Assembly (NCBI GenBank): GCA_026392115.1
Contig: JAPLCQ010000120.1
Coordinates: forward strand, 1 to 49,313
Source of the DNA: Armatimonadota bacterium
Lineage (GTDB): Bacteria > Armatimonadota > Chthonomonadetes > Chthonomonadales > CAJBBX01
Length of the DNA stretch: 49,313 nucleotides
Direction: 5' to 3'
The notes beneath the pieces are model-generated. The model saw only the letters and a list, made by a program, of their open reading frames with translations. It did not search any database and was not told where the DNA came from. Below are positions 20,764-35,288 of this stretch, piece by piece. Within the stretch, counting starts at the first letter, position 1; every line of letters starts with the position of its first letter. A program made the translations under genes and the position numbers.

Positions 20764-21717
20764 ATGCTTGAGTGGGTTGTGACGGATGCCCAGGCCGGGT
20801 CGCGCGCCGACGTGGTCATCGCCGAGTTGGCCCAGGTCACACGAACGACCGCCCAGCGCCTGATGGCCGACGAGAGCTTCCTGATCAACGGAGCGCCATC
20901 CAAGCCCTCGTCGCGTCTTCGTCCGGGAGACGCAGTCAGCGGCGAAATCCCGCCACCCATCCCGTCGCACGTCGAACCCGAGGCCATAGAGCTTGATATC
21001 GTCTACGAAGATAGCGATATCATCGTGATCAACAAGCCGCAGGGGCTTGTGGTCCATCCCGCTCCCGGCACTCCGTCGGGCACCGTGGTCAACGCGATCC
21101 TGGCCCACGCCGCAGACCTGTCCGGCATCGGCGGCGAGCAGCGTCCGGGCATCGTCCACCGCCTCGACAAGGACACCTCGGGCCTCCTCATGATCGCCAA
21201 GAACGACATGAGCCACTCCGGGCTCCAGGCCCAGATCCAGGCGCGCACCGCCTCGCGGCTCTATCTGGCGCTCGTACACGGAACACCGCGCTTCAACGAG
21301 GCCGAAGTGGATGCTCCCATCGGCCGCCACCCCGGAGACCGGAAGCGCATGGCGGTGCTCTCCCCTGGCGCGTCGGGCGCACGCTCCGCACAGACGCGGC
21401 TGCGAGTGCTGCGGGCGCTGCCCGACGCCGCGCTGCTGGAGGCGACCCTTCGCACCGGCCGCACCAACCAGATCCGCGTCCATTGCGCCTACACCGGCCA
21501 CCCGGTGCTGGCCGACCCGGTCTACGGCGTTGCCTCGCTGGACCGTCGGTGGTTTGCCGCACGCGGCATGGCGGCGCCGACGGCGCAGATGCTTCACGCC
21601 TACCGGCTCAAGCTGACGCACCCCCGCACCGGCGAGGCGCTGCAGTTCGAGGCGCCCATGCCCGAACCCATGCGAGCGGCGCTCCTCGCTTGCGGCGGCG
21701 AGCCGGTGTTGCCTTAG
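20764..21717 (+). CDS. RluD/RluA family 23S rRNA pseudouridine synthase
   Basis: Isomerises uridines in 23S rRNA (the RluD family modifies helix 69). The 317-aa protein has an N-terminal S4 RNA-binding domain (about 12-70; SRADVVIAELAQVTRTTAQRLM) and the catalytic motif HRLDKDTSG at 132-140 with D135. RTGRTNQIRVH and GHPVLADPVYG are also present. ATG 20764 has GGGAGG 5 bases upstream; an earlier ATG at 20686 would extend into the epimerase start. Its stop shares TTAG (21714-21717) with the convergent CBM9-like gene. Confidence 0.94.
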   Translation: MLEWVVTDAQAGSRADVVIAELAQVTRTTAQRLMADESFLINGAPSKPSSRLRPGDAVSGEIPPPIPSHVEPEAIELDIVYEDSDIIVINKPQGLVVHPAPGTPSGTVVNAILAHAADLSGIGGEQRPGIVHRLDKDTSGLLMIAKNDMSHSGLQAQIQARTASRLYLALVHGTPRFNEAEVDAPIGRHPGDRKRMAVLSPGASGARSAQTRLRVLRALPDAALLEATLRTGRTNQIRVHCAYTGHPVLADPVYGVASLDRRWFAARGMAAPTAQMLHAYRLKLTHPRTGEALQFEAPMPEPMRAALLACGGEPVLP

Positions 21718-22490
21718 GCCCTCGGCTCTCCGAAGCGAACCCGACCGAACCGGTCCGGCACGTGGAAGTTGGCCGGCGTGGCCAGCGTGGCGCTCCACGA
21801 GAGGTACTGGACCGCCCGCGCACGGTCGATGCGGAACAGGTTGGCCCGCCACTCGTCGCCGGGCTTGGGCGTCCTGCCGCCGGGCAGCGACGCGAATGGG
21901 ACGCGAAGCTCCACTGACCACCAGTCCGACCCGGAGTCGCCGCCGGTCGTGGCTCTTGAAGCCACGCGGCCCTCGACGCGCACACCGGCGAGAAGACCCT
22001 CGCACTCCCATTCCCGGTTCACGACCATGGTGCTCCGAACGCGATCAGGGCTACTGACATCGGCGTCGAAGGTCACGCCCAGCGGGTTCACTTCGATCTC
22101 CGGGTAGCGCGTCACATCGCCGCCGGGGGCCACGAACAGCTCGCAGACCTCCTCGTCGTAGAGCGGGTCGTCGTGCTGCGTGTAGCCTGCCCATATGTCG
22201 CGGTCAAGGCAGAAGAAGCCGACGTAGAGGGCCGTGGGGCTGTAGAGCAGCCCCGCGGCGGTCCAGCGTCTCGCGCTGGGATTGCTCGACGCCTCTTCGG
22301 CCAAATCGTCCGCCGCCGCGGCCAGGTCGAGTTCCTGCGACGGCAGAGGGCCGGTCCTGGGACGGCGGCTGGACGATAGCCAGAGCGCGTCCGCATCGCC
22401 CCAGACGGGTTTGAACACGTTGCCGTCCGGCTGGAAGTCCTCGGCGATCCAAGCGCAGGTCACAACCGGAAGCTGCAACGGGTCATGCAT
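21714..22490 (-). CDS. Carbohydrate-binding family 9-like protein
   Basis: A 258-aa protein resembling CBM9-like (DOMON-related) beta-sandwich domains: TAGLLYSPTALYVGFFCLDRDIW, DDPLYDEEVCELFVAP, YPEIEVNPLGVTFDADV and WWSVELRVPFASLPG follow the usual pattern. No signal peptide is seen, so it may stay in the cytosol. Ligand unknown. The ATG at 22490 has GGGAG 6 bases upstream and overlaps the radical SAM gene by 8 bases; an in-frame ATG at 22505 is possible. It is the last gene of the efflux-pump operon. Confidence 0.8.
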   Translation of the reverse strand: MHDPLQLPVVTCAWIAEDFQPDGNVFKPVWGDADALWLSSSRRPRTGPLPSQELDLAAAADDLAEEASSNPSARRWTAAGLLYSPTALYVGFFCLDRDIWAGYTQHDDPLYDEEVCELFVAPGGDVTRYPEIEVNPLGVTFDADVSSPDRVRSTMVVNREWECEGLLAGVRVEGRVASRATTGGDSGSDWWSVELRVPFASLPGGRTPKPGDEWRANLFRIDRARAVQYLSWSATLATPANFHVPDRFGRVRFGEPRA

Positions 22491-23934
22491 GGGTATCTCC
22501 CTCATGGCGATTGGTCTGGCGGGCGCGCCTTTCGCCCAGGTAGGCGAAGAACTCCTGCCCTTCGCGCAGGCGGCGAGCCAGCATCTGGCGGTCGGCGGCC
22601 ATCTCGCGGACGATCCTGAAGATGGGCTTGAAGCGGAAGTAGAACCGGGAGTACATGCGCGCCACAGCCTCTTCCATCTCGTCGATGCTCAGGTTGGGGT
22701 ACTGCAATGAGCCGGTTTGGATGCCCGACCCGGCCACCATGGCATGGTCCTGCATCCAGCCGTTGGCGATCGCGTCGCTGTAGAGCTCGGTGCCGGGGTA
22801 GGGGGCGGCGATCGAGACCTGGATGGTGTGCGGGTCCAGCTCCTGGGCAAAGCGAATGGTCTCCTCGACCGTCTGGTGGGTCTCGATGGGGAGCCCGATG
22901 ATGAAGGTGCCGTGAACCTTGATGCCGAGCTTGCGGCAGTTGGCCATAAACTGGCGGGCCATATCCAATCGAATGCCCTTGTGAATCCTGTCCAGGATCG
23001 CCTGGTTGCCGGACTCGAAACCTACCAACAGCAGGCGCAGGCCGCTGTCCCGCAGGGCCTTCAGCGTGTCGAAGTCCACATGCGCCCGTGCGTTGCAGGA
23101 CCAGGTGAGGCCCAGAGCCTTCATGCCGCGCCCGATCTCGACGGCGCGGCCGCGGTCGGCGGTGAAGGTGTCATCGTCGAACATCCACTCGCGCACGGTG
23201 GGGAAGAGCCGCGTGCCCTCCTCCATCTCGCGGATCACCATGGCCGGCGACTTGGCGCGGTACCGATGCCCGCCGATGGTCTGCGGCCAGAGGCAGAAGC
23301 TGCACCGCGCAGGGCAGCCGCGGCCGGTATAGAACGAGATGTAGGGGTGGAGCAGGTACCCGATGGAGTAGTTGCGGATGTCCAGGTCGCGGCTGTAGAC
23401 CGGAAGCACCGAGGGCATGGTATCCCAGTCGGTCACCACCGGTCGGTCCTCATTGTGGACGATGACCCCGTCGCCGCGCCGGTAGGAGAGCCCGGCGATT
23501 CGCTCCATGGGTAGCCCTTGGGCGAGCTCGACGCACGTGTGGTCGAACTCGGCGCGACAGACGAAGTCCAGGCAGGCCCCCTGACGTAGGGTCTCCTCCG
23601 GCAGGACGGTCGTGTGCGCGCCCAGGAAGCCCACCAGCGTCTCCGGGCTCTGCTCCTTGATGGCATCGGCGCATCGGATGTCGTTGGCCAACGAAGGCGT
23701 GCTCGTGTGGATGAAGACCAGCTCGTAGCCCGCGGCCGCTCGCAGCACTTCGTCCACGCCGAGGCCGTGCGGCGGGGCGTCGATCAGCTTGCTCCCCGGC
23801 GTCATGGCGGCGGGCTGTGCCAGCCACGTGGGGAACCAGTACGAGGTGATTTCGCGCTTAGCCTGGTACCGCGACCCCGCGCCTCCGTCGAAGCCCGAGA
23901 ACGAGGGCGGGCCAAGGTAGAGCGTGCGCCTCAT
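22483..23934 (-). CDS. B12-binding-type radical SAM protein, HpnJ-like
   Basis: A 483-aa class-B radical SAM enzyme: N-terminal cobalamin-binding-like domain (about 1-140) and a radical SAM barrel with the 4Fe-4S motif GCPARCSFC (C207, C211, C214). The opening (LGPPSFSGFDGGAGSRYQA, then PTWLAQPAAM and DAPPHGL) strongly resembles HpnJ, which forms the cyclitol head group of bacteriohopanetetrol cyclitol ether. No other hopanoid gene (shc, hpnH, hpnI, hpnK) is in the window, so the substrate is uncertain; a related lipid or sugar ring contraction is possible. Its ATG overlaps the RND stop as ATGA, and it overlaps the CBM9-like gene, placing it firmly in the exporter operon. Confidence 0.85.
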   Translation of the reverse strand: MRRTLYLGPPSFSGFDGGAGSRYQAKREITSYWFPTWLAQPAAMTPGSKLIDAPPHGLGVDEVLRAAAGYELVFIHTSTPSLANDIRCADAIKEQSPETLVGFLGAHTTVLPEETLRQGACLDFVCRAEFDHTCVELAQGLPMERIAGLSYRRGDGVIVHNEDRPVVTDWDTMPSVLPVYSRDLDIRNYSIGYLLHPYISFYTGRGCPARCSFCLWPQTIGGHRYRAKSPAMVIREMEEGTRLFPTVREWMFDDDTFTADRGRAVEIGRGMKALGLTWSCNARAHVDFDTLKALRDSGLRLLLVGFESGNQAILDRIHKGIRLDMARQFMANCRKLGIKVHGTFIIGLPIETHQTVEETIRFAQELDPHTIQVSIAAPYPGTELYSDAIANGWMQDHAMVAGSGIQTGSLQYPNLSIDEMEEAVARMYSRFYFRFKPIFRIVREMAADRQMLARRLREGQEFFAYLGERRARQTNRHEGDTHA

Positions 23935-26900
23935 CGCGTCGCCCCATTGCCGCGACGCGCGAGCCGGCTTCGCAGGTCGTCAGCCACCGTATAGACCGCG
24001 GGCACGACCAGCAGCGTCAGGACCGTGGAGACCGTCAGCCCGCCGATCACCACCGTGGCCATCGGCGCTCGCAGTTCCGCGGCATCGCCCAGGCTGAGCG
24101 CCACCGGGGCCATCCCCACCAGCGTGGTGATCGTGGTCATCAGGATGGGTCTGAGCCGCGCCGCACCGGCTTCCGCGACTGCCTCATTGCGCGCCATGCC
24201 GCGTTGCCGCAGCGTGTTGGTGTAGTCGACCAGCAAGATGGCGTTACGGCCCATGAGACCGCAGAGCATCATGATGCCCACCATGGTGACGAGCGACAGC
24301 GTCTGACCGGCCAGAACCAGAGCCGCCAGCGCGCCCACCAGGGCCATCGGGAGCGTGAGCATGACCACCAACGGTTCCAGCAGCGAGTTGAAGAGCGAGG
24401 CCAGCACGGCGAAGACCAGCAAGACGGCGAGCGCAAGCGCCCCGGCCAGGTACGGCAGGTTGTCGGCCATGGCCTCGGACTCGCCGCCGAACCGGTGGGC
24501 GACGGGTCCGAGGTCCAGTCCCGCAAGCGCTGCCTCGATCCGCGACTGCGCGTCGCCGAGCGGGACACCGGGTGCAAGGTCCGCGGTCACGGTGATGAGC
24601 CGCCGACCGTTGAGGCGGTCGATGCCCACCGGACCCGAGCGCCGCTCGATGGTGGCCACATCGCCCAGCATGACCGCGGTTCCGTCGCTGAACCCGACCG
24701 GCACATCCGCCACCGTCTCGGGCCGGGAGCCGTCGAGGCCGGCCGCGCGGAGGCGGATGGGCACGGAGGCGCCGGCCAGCATCATGGTGGTCGACGCGTC
24801 GCCCTCGATGGCTGTCCGCAGGACGGAGCCCGCCATCGCCGGCAGGACGGATGTGGCCGACGACCGCAGCGGATCGATGCGGGCCTGCAACTCGGGCTTT
24901 CCCTGCCGGTAGGAGGTGTCGGCGTTCAGGATGCCAGGCAAGTGCGCCACTGCCGCACGGGCCTTCGCTGCGGCTTGGGCCACGTCATGCAGGTCGTCGC
25001 CCGTCAGTTGGAGCTGGATCGCGCTGCCGACGTTGGCCACCGACCGCAGCGCCGTGACGGTGATCCGTGCGCCGCCCACGTCGGAGATCAGGCCGCGAAC
25101 CCGGTCCGCCACATCAGTGTCCGCGAGTATGCGAACAGGGCCGCCCGCAGGGGAGAGGCCCAGCCGTTGAAGGGCCGAGGCGCGAGGCTGCAGGTCCAGT
25201 GTCATCTGCGCCAGGTGCGAGCCCTGCTGCGGTATGGCGCCGAATCCACCGAGGACGCGGCCCAGCGTTGTCGCCACGCCTGCAATGCCCGGTGCACGGG
25301 CCAGACGCGCTTCGACCTGCCGCGCCACGGCATCGGTGGCCTCCATCGAGGACCCCGCCGGTAGTTCGAGCAGCACACTCACCAGACCTCGGTCAGTGGC
25401 AGGCACGAACTCCGTGCCCAGGAAGGGCACGCTCACCAGCCCGGCACAGAGGAGTGCCGCGGCGCCCGTGGCGATGACCCACCCACGGTTGTGAAGCGCC
25501 CACGCCACGGCTCGCTTGTAACGGGCCGAGCCCACACCCGTACGGCTGTCCGAAGCCTCAGACGTTCGTCGACGATACCATCGCGCGGCCAGCGCGGGCG
25601 TGACGGTGAAGGAGACTAGAAGCGAGAAGAGCGTGGCGAACGCGACGGTGATGCCGAACTCACGGAAGAAGGCCCCCACCACCCCGCCCATGAACGCGAT
25701 CGGAACAAAGACCACCACGTCCGCCAGGGTCAGTGCAAGCCCCGCGAAGCCAATCTCCGTCCGGCCGCTGTAGGCGGCTTCTTCCGGCGTCTCGCCTGCC
25801 TCCAGATGCCGGGTGATGCTCTCCAGCACCACGATGCTGTCATCTACCAGGATCCCCACGCTGAGTGACAGAGCCAGCAGCGTCATCTGGTTCAGCGTGA
25901 AGCCCCCGATGTGCATCATCAGGTACGTCGCCACCATACAGGCAGGCAGAGCGAGGGCCACGATGACGGTCCCGCGCACTTCGCGCAGGAAGAGCAGCAC
26001 CACAAGCGTCGCAAGCAGGGCGCCCAGTACCAGCGTGACGTTCACGTCATGCAATGCCCGGCGAACCACCGCGGATTCGTCCCGCACCACCACCGGCGCG
26101 GCGCCGTCGGGCAGCGAGCCATCGGTTGTGGCCCCAGCCAGCAGGGCGCGGGCGCGATCCACGACATCCATGGCGTTGGCGTCCGGCGACTTGGTGAGGG
26201 TCAGGCCGACGCACTCCCGGCCGTTTATGCGCGATGCGGCGTCGCCGGCGTGGCAGGCAAGGACCACCGTGGCCACGTCGCCGATGGTCAGGGGCGAGGC
26301 CGCCCTATCCTTCCCCGGCAGCCCGGGGATGGGCAGGTCCGGCATGAGTTCCTGGGCCATCAGCCGTTGAGCCGGGATCATGGCATGCCGAACGTCTTCG
26401 AGCGACCGGAACGAGGCCTCGGTGCGGTAGGCCGTTTCGAGTGTTCCGGTCAGCAGGGAGCCCGACGGCACACTGCGGTTGGACGCCTTCAGGGCCGCGC
26501 TGACGTCATCAAGGGTCACGCCCAGGCTGGTCAGCGTAGGGACGTCCGCCAGGACGCGCACCTCGGTCTGCGGGCCGCCCGTCACCTCGACCGTCGCCAC
26601 TCCCTGTATGCGCGCAAGCCGGGGAGAGAGGTGTCGGTCCACGGCTCGCCGGAGCGCCCCCGCGTCGCCGGCGGACGGTATGGCTACCTGCAGCACCGGT
26701 TGTGCGTTGATGTCCAGCTTGGCGACGATGGGTGGCCGGACCCCCTCCGGCAACATCGCCCGAGCCAGTTCTATCCGTTCACGGACCATGGTCTGGGCCT
26801 GGTTCAGGTCCGTGCCTACCGCCAGGTCGAGGCTCACCACGGAGAGCGACTCCTGCGAGCTGGAGTAGACGTCCCTTAGCCCGGGGGCCGAACCGACCGC

Positions 26901-27107
26901 GTCCTCGATGAGGCGTGTTACGGAGGACTCCACCTCCGCCGGACCCGCTCCGGGGTAGACCGTCACCACGGTGAGCGTGGGGATTTCAACCTTCGGGTTG
27001 AGTTCCGCCGGCAGCCGCGAGTAGGAGAGCGCGCCCAGCACCGCGATGGCCGCCAGGCACATCCAGATGACGATCGGGCGGCCGATGGCCAGCCGTGTCA
27101 GCCACAT
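23931..27107 (-). CDS. RND family efflux permease (AcrB-like, HAE1 type)
   Basis: Inner-membrane proton-driven pump of 1058 aa with the RND plan: TM1, large periplasmic loop, TM2-6, TM7, second loop, TM8-12. TM4 carries the proton-relay pair in GILVDDSIVV. In TM10 the usual Lys of K-N-A-I-L is Arg (R954, GLMGRNAILLVDYTN), a conservative change. LRPILMTTITTLVGMAPVAL follows. I chose ATG 27107 (MWLTRLAIGRPIVIW); a TTG at 27137 would add ten residues. It follows the adaptor gene by 34 bases. The substrate cannot be predicted; the attached radical SAM gene hints at a modified lipid or glycan (inference). Confidence 0.93.
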   Translation of the reverse strand: MWLTRLAIGRPIVIWMCLAAIAVLGALSYSRLPAELNPKVEIPTLTVVTVYPGAGPAEVESSVTRLIEDAVGSAPGLRDVYSSSQESLSVVSLDLAVGTDLNQAQTMVRERIELARAMLPEGVRPPIVAKLDINAQPVLQVAIPSAGDAGALRRAVDRHLSPRLARIQGVATVEVTGGPQTEVRVLADVPTLTSLGVTLDDVSAALKASNRSVPSGSLLTGTLETAYRTEASFRSLEDVRHAMIPAQRLMAQELMPDLPIPGLPGKDRAASPLTIGDVATVVLACHAGDAASRINGRECVGLTLTKSPDANAMDVVDRARALLAGATTDGSLPDGAAPVVVRDESAVVRRALHDVNVTLVLGALLATLVVLLFLREVRGTVIVALALPACMVATYLMMHIGGFTLNQMTLLALSLSVGILVDDSIVVLESITRHLEAGETPEEAAYSGRTEIGFAGLALTLADVVVFVPIAFMGGVVGAFFREFGITVAFATLFSLLVSFTVTPALAARWYRRRTSEASDSRTGVGSARYKRAVAWALHNRGWVIATGAAALLCAGLVSVPFLGTEFVPATDRGLVSVLLELPAGSSMEATDAVARQVEARLARAPGIAGVATTLGRVLGGFGAIPQQGSHLAQMTLDLQPRASALQRLGLSPAGGPVRILADTDVADRVRGLISDVGGARITVTALRSVANVGSAIQLQLTGDDLHDVAQAAAKARAAVAHLPGILNADTSYRQGKPELQARIDPLRSSATSVLPAMAGSVLRTAIEGDASTTMMLAGASVPIRLRAAGLDGSRPETVADVPVGFSDGTAVMLGDVATIERRSGPVGIDRLNGRRLITVTADLAPGVPLGDAQSRIEAALAGLDLGPVAHRFGGESEAMADNLPYLAGALALAVLLVFAVLASLFNSLLEPLVVMLTLPMALVGALAALVLAGQTLSLVTMVGIMMLCGLMGRNAILLVDYTNTLRQRGMARNEAVAEAGAARLRPILMTTITTLVGMAPVALSLGDAAELRAPMATVVIGGLTVSTVLTLLVVPAVYTVADDLRSRLARRGNGATR

Positions 27108-27141
27108 GGACGGCGCACCCGGATCATGGAGGCGCAAACTC

Positions 27142-28671
27142 TCACTGCCGCTCAGCCGCTACACGGTCGCCGTCCTTCAGGCCCTGCGGGGCTCGGGTCA
27201 CTACTCGGTCCGTCGGACTGAGCCCGGTCACCGTCGCCGACGTTCCGGACGAGTCAAGGATGCGTACCGTCCGGCGGCGGACATGCCTTGAACCCATATC
27301 CAGGACGAACACGGCGGCATCAGGCCCGTCGGTCTGAAGCGCAGAGGCGGGAATCTGCAGCGCTCCGGGCTGAGGCGGCGCCGATAGGATCACGCGGGCG
27401 TTTTGCCCCGGGCCGAGGCCGGCCGCCGTCCGGGTCAGGGCCACACGTACCAGCATGGTCCGACCGTCGTGCGAGACGAGCGGACCAACGCGCTCCACAG
27501 TAGCAGGCACGGCGGCGCCTGAGCCGATCACGACGGTGCACGACAAGCCCATGCGTAGGCGACGGGCCGTCCGTAGGCCTACCGGCGCCTCGACGGCATG
27601 AGCCGCGACCGATGTGACTCGCATCAGCGCGCTGCCGGGCTGGGCATACTCGCCGGCCAGAGCCGTGAGGCCGCTCACCACGCCTGCGATGGGGGAGACG
27701 ATCGCGTCGGTTCCCACGCTTGCCTGGGCCTGACGCACACCCGCACGGGCCTGCATCGATTGCGCCGCCGCCGCGGCCATGTCGGCACCGGCGACCTCCA
27801 GCGCCTGGCCCCGGGCTTGGCGGGCGAAGGCAACGGCTTGCTCCGCCAGCCGGACGCCGGCGCGTGCGGCCTCGAGGTCGGCCTCGTTGACCTTGCCTCG
27901 CAACGGGGCGGCGCGCCCCGCCTGAGCCGCGGCCGCCTGAGCCGCCTTCAGTCCTGCCTCGGCGAGGTCGAGCTGCGACCGCGCGATGTCCGCCTGCGCC
28001 CGCGCGCCCTGAAGGTCCGCAAGGGCGATTCCGCCCACCTTGTAGAGCCGCTCCAGCCGATCCGCGCCTTCGGTCGCCACGCGGAGGCCGATGCGGCCCT
28101 GATCGACTCCGGCCTTGGCCTGGAGGACGCCCGCCTCGGCGCGATCAGCGTCGGAACCGGCCGCGTCGGCCCCGAGCTCGACACCAAGCTCAGCCTGCTT
28201 CAGCTTTGTGCGGGCAACAGCCAGCCCGGCCTCGGCTTGGCTCAGGGTGGCTTCCATTTCGGTGGCCCGGGCGTCACGACCCGCATGAGCCTTGCGGTCG
28301 ACGGCGCGGGCGGATGCCCATCCCGCCTCCGCGCCGGCCACCTGAGCAGCGAGGTCGCCCAAATCCAGGATGACGAGCTTCTGTCCAGCCGCCACCACGT
28401 CGCCCTCAGCGACCAGCACCTTCACGATACGGGAGGGAACCTTGGCGCTGACGGCCGCTTCGGCATCAGGCACGACGCGGCCGAGCGCCTCAAGGCGCCG
28501 GCCATCCGTGGCCTGCGTCGGCCTGCAGGCCACGACGCTGACAGGCGTGCCGGTCGCAAGCCCGGCGCGAGGCGCCATGGACCGTGCGGCACGGTTCCGC
28601 ATGGCGACGTTGAATGCCGCCGCGGCGGTTATGACGGCAATCAGCAGTGCCACGCCTATCCCGCGCCTCAT
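27142..28671 (-). CDS. Periplasmic adaptor (membrane fusion protein) of RND pump
   Basis: A 509-aa HlyD/AcrA-family adaptor linking the RND pump to the TolC-like channel. N-terminal membrane anchor (about 4-24), a lipoyl half (VPSRIVKVLVAEGDVVAAGQKLVILD), a long Ala-rich coiled-coil hairpin (about 110-310), the second lipoyl half (IVSPIAGVVSGLTALAGEYAQPGSAL), beta-barrel and membrane-proximal domains (LPIPASALQ-like, here LQIPASALQTDG). The hairpin is longer than in AcrA and built largely of Ala, Glu, Gln and Arg. ATG overlaps the tolC-like stop as ATGA. Confidence 0.9.
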   Translation of the reverse strand: MRRGIGVALLIAVITAAAAFNVAMRNRAARSMAPRAGLATGTPVSVVACRPTQATDGRRLEALGRVVPDAEAAVSAKVPSRIVKVLVAEGDVVAAGQKLVILDLGDLAAQVAGAEAGWASARAVDRKAHAGRDARATEMEATLSQAEAGLAVARTKLKQAELGVELGADAAGSDADRAEAGVLQAKAGVDQGRIGLRVATEGADRLERLYKVGGIALADLQGARAQADIARSQLDLAEAGLKAAQAAAAQAGRAAPLRGKVNEADLEAARAGVRLAEQAVAFARQARGQALEVAGADMAAAAAQSMQARAGVRQAQASVGTDAIVSPIAGVVSGLTALAGEYAQPGSALMRVTSVAAHAVEAPVGLRTARRLRMGLSCTVVIGSGAAVPATVERVGPLVSHDGRTMLVRVALTRTAAGLGPGQNARVILSAPPQPGALQIPASALQTDGPDAAVFVLDMGSRHVRRRTVRILDSSGTSATVTGLSPTDRVVTRAPQGLKDGDRVAAERQ

Positions 28672-29987
28672 GGTTGCGGCGCCTGCGGCGGGTCGGCATC
28701 CAGGGCGGCGGCATGCCGCTGGTCGGCATAGGCCGTCTGGAGCGCCGCCTTGGCTTGGGCCACGTTGCCCTGGGCACGGTCCACCGCCAACCGGGCGCCG
28801 CTCAGTTCGATCTCGGGGGCCATCCGCTCACGGTAACGCGCCAGCGTCACCTCCAACGCCGAGTGCGCCGAGGCCGCTTGGCGTTCAGCCGTGCGCAGGG
28901 ACGCGACCGCGTCTTCGGCATCGGCCACGGACCTGTCCCACTGCAACGCCAGCGAACGCCGGGTCTCCTCCAGCAGCGAGGCAAGCTGTGCCGCCCGCGC
29001 CCGCGCTTCCGCCTGGTCGATCTGTGCTGCACCGCCGTCTAGGAGCCTCCATGTGAGGCGCAGACCCAACGCGGCATAGGTCGGAGCGATGAGCGGCGTC
29101 TCGGGCTGGGCGCTCGCCGTTGCGACAGCCGCCAGCTCGGGCATACACTGGGTGGCCGCTAGCTTCGCGCCGCTCCGGGCCGCCGCCAACTGGGCCTCAA
29201 TGAGCGTGATCTCCGGACGTGGTCGGCACGCCGACGCGGGCACCGGCGCCAGTGCTGGATCGGTGAGGAGTTCCTGAACGGGCGCCATGCGTCCCATCAG
29301 CCGAGCCAGATTGCCCCGAGCCAGACGACGCCCGTTGCAGGCTCGGATCAGCCCCTGCTCGGCCTCGGCCACCTCGGCGTCGGTGGCATCGATGTCGCGG
29401 CGGGGCATCTGGCCGGCCTCGGCCATTTCCTTCACCAGCGCGAGATGCATCCGGGCCGTCACGACGCCTGCATCGGCGATGGCGACCATCTGATCGGCCA
29501 GGTGGGCGGCGATGTAGGCCAGACGAACCTCGTGCAGCGCATCGATGCGGGCCATCGCGGCCTCGGCATCCGCGACCCGACCCAAGGAGCGGTATCTGGC
29601 CGCCGCGTCCGCGGCTCCTGCATGAAGCAGTCTCTGCTCGGCGGACAGCCCGACGCTCCAAGTACGGCCGGGCAGGAAGGTTGCCGGTTGCCGCGTGGCG
29701 GGCGCAGGCCCCTGGACGCCAGCTGCCGCCTGCATGGTCACCGTCGGCCGAGCAACCGGACGCTCTCGCCGCGCCGATGCCACTGCGGCGGCATGGGCCG
29801 ACCGGATTGCTTGGAAGCCGGGTGCGACGCGGAGGGCCTCGCGGACGACGACCTCAAGGGAAAGAGGTTGGAGCGGGGGAGGCGACTGAGCGGGGCCGGG
29901 CGACGAGGCCGCCTGGCCTGCGAGCCTGGGGGCTGAGCACGCGAAGAGGCCTATGGCCAAGTATACGCCCCGGGTCGTTGGTTGCAC
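28668..29987 (-). CDS. TolC-like outer membrane efflux protein
   Basis: A 439-aa outer membrane factor. Signal peptide of about 25 residues (hydrophobic VYLAIGLFACSAP, cleavage near AGQA), then two OEP repeats: LSLEVVVREALRVAPGFQAI and, after about 210 residues, PEITLIEAQLAAARSGAKLA, each followed by long helices and a short strand region. The start is GTG at 29987; the only nearby ATG is followed at once by TGA. No good ribosome-binding sequence is visible. The start lies only 18 bases after the tRNA-Glu terminator hairpin, leaving no room for a separate promoter between them. First gene of the exporter operon. Confidence 0.85.
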   Translation of the reverse strand: MQPTTRGVYLAIGLFACSAPRLAGQAASSPGPAQSPPPLQPLSLEVVVREALRVAPGFQAIRSAHAAAVASARRERPVARPTVTMQAAAGVQGPAPATRQPATFLPGRTWSVGLSAEQRLLHAGAADAAARYRSLGRVADAEAAMARIDALHEVRLAYIAAHLADQMVAIADAGVVTARMHLALVKEMAEAGQMPRRDIDATDAEVAEAEQGLIRACNGRRLARGNLARLMGRMAPVQELLTDPALAPVPASACRPRPEITLIEAQLAAARSGAKLAATQCMPELAAVATASAQPETPLIAPTYAALGLRLTWRLLDGGAAQIDQAEARARAAQLASLLEETRRSLALQWDRSVADAEDAVASLRTAERQAASAHSALEVTLARYRERMAPEIELSGARLAVDRAQGNVAQAKAALQTAYADQRHAAALDADPPQAPQP

Positions 29988-30005
29988 TGGTCACATGAAC
30001 GAAAA

Positions 30006-30023
30006 GGGCGGGATATCCCGCCC
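30006..30023 (-). terminator. Rho-independent terminator after tRNA-Glu
   Basis: A perfect 18-base palindrome (7-bp GC stem with an ATAT loop, GGGCGGG/CCCGCCC) is followed on the minus strand by TTTTC. It starts 11 bases after the tRNA CCA end and sits 18 bases before the tolC-like GTG. Confidence 0.8.
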
Positions 30024-30034
30024 CTCGAAGGAGT

Positions 30035-30109
30035 TGGTAGCGCCACGGGGAATCGAACCCCGGCTTGAGAGCTGAGAACCCCCTGTCCTGACCGCTAGAC
30101 GATGGCGCC
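30035..30109 (-). tRNA. tRNA-Glu (CTC)
   Basis: A complete cloverleaf on the minus strand. Acceptor GGCGCCA pairs with TGGCGCT (one G-T pair at 1-72), D stem GTCT/GGAC, anticodon stem GGGGG/CTCTC with loop TTCTCAG giving anticodon CTC, T arm CGGGG-TTCGATT-CCCCG, discriminator A, and the CCA is encoded. It reads GAG codons. A strong promoter lies upstream and a hairpin terminator downstream. Confidence 0.96.
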
Positions 30110-34280: not shown

Positions 34281-35288
34281 CTATCGCTCGCGGGCGACGC
34301 AGTACTCGGCCAGTTCCGCGAGGCTGGCGCGGTAGGGGCTTGGAGGCAGTTGGCTTACGGCATCCACCGCTCGGTCGGCGTGCATCCGTGCCGCCGTCCG
34401 CGCGCGACCGAAGACCTGCAGCCGCTCCATTAGGCGTACCAGGGCTGTCACGTCGGCGTCCGTCAGGCCCGGGTTGCCGAAAGCCGCCAGCAACCGTTCG
34501 CGGACGTCCGGCGGTGCATTCTCCAGAGCAAGGATGAAGGGAAGCGTGGCGCGCCCCTCGCGTAAGTCGCTACCCACCGGCTTGCCGGTGACGGCCGGGT
34601 CGCCCAGATAGTCGAGCAGGTCGTCCGCCAGTTGGAACGCGATGCCCATATGGCTGCCGTAGCGGGCCAGGGCGTCCTCCTCGGCCTCCCCGGCGTCGGC
34701 CAGGATCGCGCCGCACCGGCAACACCCCTCCAGGAAGACGGCGGTCTTCTTGCGTATGATCTCGAGGTGCGCGTCCTCGGTTAGCTGCGTGTCTCCAGTG
34801 GCGAGAATCTCCATCACCTCACCCTCGCTCATCTCGATGGTGACGGCGGAGACCGCGCGGAGGATGCGGCGATCGAAGCCGTCGGAGAGCAGGTGCATCG
34901 AACGCGCCAGGAGGTAGTCGCCGACGATCACGGCCATCCCGTTGCCGAACACGGCGTTGGCGGTGGCCTTACCGCGGCGTACGGCGCTGCTGTCCACCAC
35001 ATCATCGTGCACCAGCGTGGCCATGTGGACCAGCTCCACGGCGGCCGCCACTCGCGCCATAGCCTCGGTAGAGGCATCGGGCGCCAGACACCGCGTGGCC
35101 AGCGCCACCAGGGCGGGCCGCAGGCGCTTGCCGCCCGCCAGCAGCACGTGTTCACTGATTGAGTAGACCTGCTTGACCTGCGAGGCCACTGCATCGCTGA
35201 GCAACGCCTCGATCGCGTCCAGGTCGTCGCGAATGGGATCGAGCCAGGAAGAGCCCGCGGGCACCGCCGCCACTGGTTGCGCCCTCAA
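34281..35288 (-). CDS. Polyprenyl diphosphate synthase (menaquinone side chain)
   Basis: Trans-prenyltransferase, 335 aa, that elongates farnesyl diphosphate with isopentenyl units. First Asp-rich motif HDDVVDSSAVRRG (D95, D96, D99), second LADDLLDYLGD, and the GGKRLRP substrate-binding segment at 52-58. Chain length cannot be read safely. It overlaps menG by 4 bases, matching the menG-hepT pairing in Bacillus, so it most likely provides the menaquinone tail (inference). Confidence 0.92.
   Translation of the reverse strand: MRAQPVAAVPAGSSWLDPIRDDLDAIEALLSDAVASQVKQVYSISEHVLLAGGKRLRPALVALATRCLAPDASTEAMARVAAAVELVHMATLVHDDVVDSSAVRRGKATANAVFGNGMAVIVGDYLLARSMHLLSDGFDRRILRAVSAVTIEMSEGEVMEILATGDTQLTEDAHLEIIRKKTAVFLEGCCRCGAILADAGEAEEDALARYGSHMGIAFQLADDLLDYLGDPAVTGKPVGSDLREGRATLPFILALENAPPDVRERLLAAFGNPGLTDADVTALVRLMERLQVFGRARTAARMHADRAVDAVSQLPPSPYRASLAELAEYCVARER

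Follow-up and report, generated by a model that had tools for sequence, protein, structure and literature searches.

The operon at positions 21714-29987 of the window, by which we mean the whole 49,313-nucleotide stretch of DNA analyzed here, probably encodes a hopanoid-dedicated tripartite exporter of the HAE1 type that does the job of HpnN in Armatimonadota, a reading to which we assign a probability of roughly 0.68. Because the pump lies in one operon with hpnJ and, in relatives, inside the main hopanoid cluster, it is probably a lipid exporter of an unrecognised type. A tie between the pump and hopanoid metabolism is very probable from its gene neighborhoods, and finished hopanoids are its probable cargo. 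Synthesis and export of a lipid, as put forward in the original prediction, is the best reading and has been strengthened by the place of the pump in the shc-hpnH-hpnA-ispH-hpnG operon of relatives.

The window belongs to a metagenome-assembled genome (MAG) of Chthonomonadales (Armatimonadota), with 5.72 Mb on 181 contigs and a completeness of 98.6%. Five minus-strand genes form a single run with overlaps of 4 or 8 bases at three of the four junctions, as originally described, and all of their open reading frames are present as listed below, together with two upstream elements:

30035-30109, minus strand: tRNA-Glu(CTC), directly upstream of the tolC-like gene on the same strand.
29997-30024, minus strand: terminator-like GC-rich inverted repeat with a T run, read from the sequence; the scan does not list this repeat.
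28668-29987, minus strand: TolC/OprM-type outer membrane factor of 439 residues with a GTG start (Pfam OEP, 6.3e-28); its orthologue stands after hpnG in other families.
27142-28671, minus strand: RND-type periplasmic adaptor of 509 residues (Pfam HlyD; TIGR01730 RND_mfp, 150 bits against a cut-off of 94.9 bits).
23931-27137, minus strand: HAE1-type (AcrB/MdtB-like) RND permease of 1058 residues from the likely ATG start at 27107 (Pfam ACR_tran, 766 bits).
22483-23934, minus strand: hpnJ, a B12-binding/radical SAM enzyme (TIGR03471, 735 bits; Pfam Radical_SAM and B12-binding; CxxxCxxC motif; tree).
21714-22505, minus strand: CBM9-like protein of 258 residues from the likely ATG start at 22490 (Pfam CBM9_2, 37.7 bits, cut-off 25).

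The tolC-like and adaptor genes overlap by 4 nucleotides (28668-28671), as do the RND and hpnJ genes (23931-23934). The gap between the adaptor and RND genes is 4 nucleotides when counted from the TTG at 27137, or 34 nucleotides from the likelier ATG at 27107, and the overlap of hpnJ with the CBM9-like gene is 8 nucleotides if the latter begins at the ATG at 22490, located behind a GGAG, or 23 nucleotides if it begins at the upstream ATG at 22505. Comparison with two congeners indicates purifying selection on all five genes (dN/dS of 0.08-0.22), with values of about 0.2 for the tolC-like, adaptor, and CBM9-like genes, 0.12 for the RND gene, and 0.08-0.09 for hpnJ. The tRNA-Glu(CTC) gene is a conserved landmark of the locus in the genus of the window (g1) and in genera g5, g6, and g8, and the form of the terminator-like repeat between it and the tolC start is kept in g6 and g8. 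Some 47 nucleotides separate the tRNA-Glu gene from the tolC start, and the inverted repeat with its T run takes up most of them; this layout recurs in g1 and also, with a somewhat wider gap, in g8 and g6. Since the short gap is mostly filled by the repeat, transcription of the operon may have to read through from the tRNA-Glu promoter.

The radical SAM gene, initially called HpnJ-like, is by its sequence a true hpnJ. Its product scores 735.3 bits over residues 3-470 against the equivalog model TIGR03471 (cut-off 577.6), far exceeding its matches to BchE, HpnR, and other B12 radical SAM families. The cysteines of the CxxxCxxC radical SAM cluster (C207, C211, and C214) are invariant among 19 sequences, an N-terminal B12-binding-like domain is present (Pfam), and the gene occurs as a single copy in the genome. 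In the tree, a long branch (100/100 support) parts all HpnJ rows, those of Mycetohabitans, Paraburkholderia, and Methylobacterium included, from the nearest non-HpnJ homologues. Both the score and this grouping with proteobacterial HpnJ bear out the initial assignment. HpnJ is predicted to perform the last step in the synthesis of bacteriohopanetetrol cyclitol ether, starting from hopanoid glucosamine.

The original remark on the absence of other hopanoid genes nearby holds for the 49 kb window as far as it is annotated and not for the genome, where shc, hpnH, hpnI, and hpnK, the genes originally suggested as worth looking for, were all found on contigs C85 and C4. Contig C85 carries shc-hpnH-hpnA-ispH-hpnG, with shc at 668.8 bits (cut-off 431), hpnH at 316 bits (cut-off 225), and an HpnG-like gene at 112 bits, below the cut-off of 187; hpnA, between hpnH and ispH, was detected by an in-house profile. 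Contig C4 carries hpnK (245.7 bits, cut-off 232.6) and hpnI (340 bits, cut-off 310) behind ruvB. With hpnJ in the window, shc to hpnG on C85, and hpnK-hpnI on C4, the gene set for the cyclitol ether as described (PMC12583986, PMC5462960) is, by these profile matches, complete though scattered. In g1 (G000:C4, L041:6977-10409; L105-L107), the end of ruvB and hpnK share 4 nucleotides and hpnI comes next, and hpnK-hpnI beside ruvB was not seen in genera other than g1.

We surveyed the family of the window in 12 genomes from eight genera. The order tRNA-Glu-tolC-adaptor-RND-hpnJ is found in g1 (three genomes), g8 (G009 and G011), and g6 (G007). A Gfo/Idh/MocA oxidoreductase gene is located between the RND gene and hpnJ in g8 and g6, with further genes before hpnJ in g6, and a CBM9 domain follows hpnJ at all of these loci. 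The proteins of the pump operon are 32-58% identical between the three genera, yet the gene arrangement is kept. In G011, the pump lies at the end of contig C126 and the oxidoreductase gene and hpnJ at the start of C90; a CTGAAGG repeat forms both contig ends, which have 50 bases in common, and the two parts are therefore very likely adjacent. This heptamer array between the RND and oxidoreductase genes of G011 breaks the assembly (L089 end, L049 start).

We rejected the view of the pump-hpnJ operon as an accident of one genus, since three genera retain it and three other families have the pump linked to hpnG. Linkage to hpnJ as a general rule was rejected as well, hpnJ being alone or near hpnK or hpnI outside g1, g6, and g8. 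The proposed conservation of the linkage thus extends to the genus of the window, g6, and g8, for which the RND neighbors and the position of the enzyme within HpnJ both stand, and it does not extend to other genera and families, where hpnJ and the pump are not adjacent. A locus with HpnJ, an FGGY kinase, and an RND protein (L079) was dismissed as an independent linkage: this RND protein is 29% identical and falls outside the pump clade on a very long branch, and no adaptor or tolC gene was seen beside it.

One member of the family, G006 (96% complete), is the only one without shc over the cut-off, hpnI, and hpnJ. Its locus has the same left flank and the tRNA-Glu gene, followed directly by the oxidoreductase gene and CBM9-GH5, and the genes absent from this otherwise syntenic region are precisely those of the pump and hpnJ. 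This pattern suggests that the pump goes with the hopanoid genes and the sugar genes do not, although G006 is a single event, too little to sustain the argument by itself.

A second linkage to hopanoid genes appeared when the surroundings of the pump were read in 20 further genomes outside the family. Eight genomes from three other families have the order hpnH-hpnA-ispH-hpnG-tolC-adaptor-RND, namely G012, G014, G015, G018, G022, G025, and G026 from the same order and G050 from another family of the phylum, and shc precedes hpnH in the five stretches that show it. The distance from hpnG to tolC ranges from a 4-nucleotide overlap to about 75 nucleotides in seven of the eight (e.g., a 4-nucleotide overlap in G015 and G026 and 9 nucleotides in G018). 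Curated models identify HpnA in G018, G015, G012, and G050 with 422-479 bits (cut-off 368) and HpnH in G018 with 347 bits; the HpnG-like proteins of the same four genomes score 99-128 bits, below the HpnG cut-off of 187. In the family of the window, the shc-hpnH cluster, including hpnA-ispH-hpnG where the contig shows them, has no pump; it is followed by an ammonium transporter gene in G000 and G007, and in G004 iron-transport genes take this place.

The 22 order-level permeases form one clade in the tree (100/100). The hpnJ-linked permeases constitute a subclade (90/89), with g1 and g8 joined at 99/98, and the three paralogues of the window genome that were placed in the tree (C110, C24, and C41) fall outside the pump clade. 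The pump at the hpnG and hpnJ loci is, accordingly, one orthologue with two separate hopanoid linkages. Three families, the more distant f20 among them, show the hpnG linkage, and the simplest history would therefore place the pump first in the hopanoid operon and later with hpnJ. The association is not uniform. The RND gene is found alone, without adaptor, tolC, or hpn neighbors, in eight genomes (G004, G008, and G010, and five of family f3: G013, G016, G017, G019, and G021). G005 has shc, hpnI, and hpnJ and no close pump, and members of the phylum that lack HpnJ carry relatives of the pump (43-45% identity).

The pump consists of a full-length ACR_tran permease, an RND_mfp adaptor, and an OEP channel encoded in one operon (Pfam, NCBIfam). 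The best solved relative of the permease is MdtB, aligned over residues 14-1056, with MexB and AcrB as further relatives, and the full-length alignment to solved MdtB/AcrB settles the fold class. Its nearest NCBIfam models are general multidrug permeases, all scoring below their cut-offs. The proton-relay double aspartate of TM4 lies in VGILVDDSIVV at residue 417 of the 1058-residue form and is present in 30 of 30 subfamily rows; it corresponds to D407/D408 of AcrB. The proton-relay position of TM10 (K940 in AcrB) is occupied by arginine (GRNAI) in all order-level rows and two f17 relatives and by lysine (KNAI) in the other rows of the wider phylum, arginine being likewise positively charged. 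Against the HpnN model TIGR03480, the permease reaches 20.1 bits with a cut-off of 751.85. No protein of the whole window genome passes this cut-off, and with a best match of 24.3 bits we rejected an HpnN or HpnN-like gene elsewhere in the genome. The original description of the pump as a full AcrB-like tripartite type and not HpnN was therefore correct.

In the mechanism that we propose, Shc would make diploptene and HpnH adenosylhopane, from which HpnG and HpnA would lead to further bacteriohopanepolyols; HpnI and HpnK would add glucosamine, and HpnJ would convert it to the cyclitol ether. Driven by the proton gradient, the RND permease would draw finished hopanoids out of either the inner membrane or the periplasm and hand them on, by way of the adaptor and the TolC-like channel, to the outer membrane or the cell surface. 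The cargo, direction, and endpoint of transport are inferred from gene context and co-occurrence. The pump would thereby play the part of HpnN, a different RND family that does this job in Proteobacteria. Ancestrally, the pump genes would have closed the shc-hpnH-hpnA-ispH-hpnG operon, and in the lineage of the window they would have reached a position behind tRNA-Glu, where they share an operon with hpnJ. We somewhat favor the broader view that an HAE1 tripartite system spanning both membranes is a second, separate solution to hopanoid export in bacteria without HpnN, once part of a hopanoid operon of early Armatimonadota and later rewired to hpnJ.

The pump could also serve hopanoid metabolism with another cargo, such as squalene, adenine, or a glycosylated intermediate, or relieve envelope stress caused by hopanoid synthesis. 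HAE1 pumps take amphiphiles and hydrocarbons and are often broad-range, the pump follows HpnG, which is annotated as a hopanoid-associated phosphorylase, and the linkage evidence names no cargo. We nevertheless regard such a role as unlikely, given that the lineage of the window links the pump to hpnJ, the last step and not an early one, and that no known hopanoid transporter was found in the window genome. Less likely still is an ordinary multidrug or solvent efflux operon, as AcrB-type tripartite pumps are usually read, standing beside hopanoid genes by chance and descent. The solved relatives MdtB, MexB, and AcrB and the general multidrug models nearest to the permease, albeit below their cut-offs, would fit this possibility, as would the free movement of RND genes and the eight lone copies, whereas the occurrence of the same orthologue in two hopanoid linkages, the tight operon spacing, and the joint absence in G006 argue against it.

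The least probable explanation, which we consider highly improbable, is that the system makes and exports a glycan or glycolipid whose sugar part the CBM9-like protein binds. It would account for the run shared by CBM9-like, GH5, and Gfo/Idh/MocA genes in g8 and by CBM9 and Gfo/Idh/MocA in g6, and for a conserved CBM9-like gene that overlaps hpnJ in the window. However, G006 keeps the oxidoreductase-CBM9-GH5 genes at the same tRNA-Glu locus without hpnJ, the pump, shc, and hpnI, none of the hpnG-linked pumps has a CBM9 gene nearby, and the CBM9-like protein has no obvious signal peptide by eye. On the evidence of G006, we rejected CBM9 as part of the lipid system and abandon the earlier proposal that this protein binds the sugar part of the lipid. 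The CBM9-like protein is probably a remnant of a separate sugar module. A conserved oxidoreductase-CBM9-GH5 module occupies the tRNA-Glu locus elsewhere (L048:7565-11857, L049:84-4559, L099:9078-11965). The window gene lacks a GH5 domain, and in g8 CBM9 is fused or next to GH5; the genomes of g1 have no close oxidoreductase, and GH5 is missing at their locus, leaving only the CBM9-like part.

HpnN (TIGR03480), an HAE3-family transporter of Rhodopseudomonas and Burkholderia, is the only hopanoid transporter described in the open-licence literature that we found, and it is reported to be a homodimer working without periplasmic or outer-membrane partners (PMC12583986, PMC6394551, PMC8277102). Like HpnN, the window pump belongs to the RND superfamily, is coded among hopanoid genes, and is proposed to bring hopanoids to the outer membrane; unlike HpnN, it is of the HAE1 type with its own adaptor and TolC-like channel, and it matches the HpnN model weakly. 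It shares the full-length sequence match and the three-part design with the HAE1 multidrug pumps MdtB, AcrB, and MexB but differs from them in being linked to hopanoid genes in two arrangements. The hpnIJK genes of Burkholderia relatives and Methylobacterium include the same hpnJ family, and hpnI and hpnK are also present in the window genome, whereas hpnJ there lies apart from both and shares an operon with the pump. AmeABCD of Castellaniella defragrans likewise combines an RND exporter with envelope partners and is connected to terpene metabolism, but AmeD is an HAE3 protein with a role in monoterpene tolerance rather than in hopanoids (PMC6394551). In Acidobacteria, the gene after the hpnA-hpnG cluster, ug1, is unnamed, and we found no description of it as a transporter; nor did we find a report of an AcrB/TolC-type system in a hopanoid cluster in the open-licence literature. 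If the proposed exporter is real, hopanoid export arose more than once, a pump type commonly taken for a drug pump has a natural lipid substrate, and multidrug efflux should be inferred with caution from AcrB-like genes alone.

Two minor observations concern hopanoid-related genes. The HpnJ proteins of records labelled Acidobacteriota (Bryobacterales/Acidobacteriia; L071, L073, L075, L077, and L078) are 68-70% identical to the HpnJ of the window and nest among the Chthonomonadales HpnJ sequences in the tree, a pattern suggestive of either cross-phylum transfer or mislabelled MAGs. Roughly 4 kb upstream of the operon is a polyprenyl synthetase gene (34281-35288), possibly for a farnesyl diphosphate synthase, and the hopanoid-free G006 retains a homologue at this locus too.
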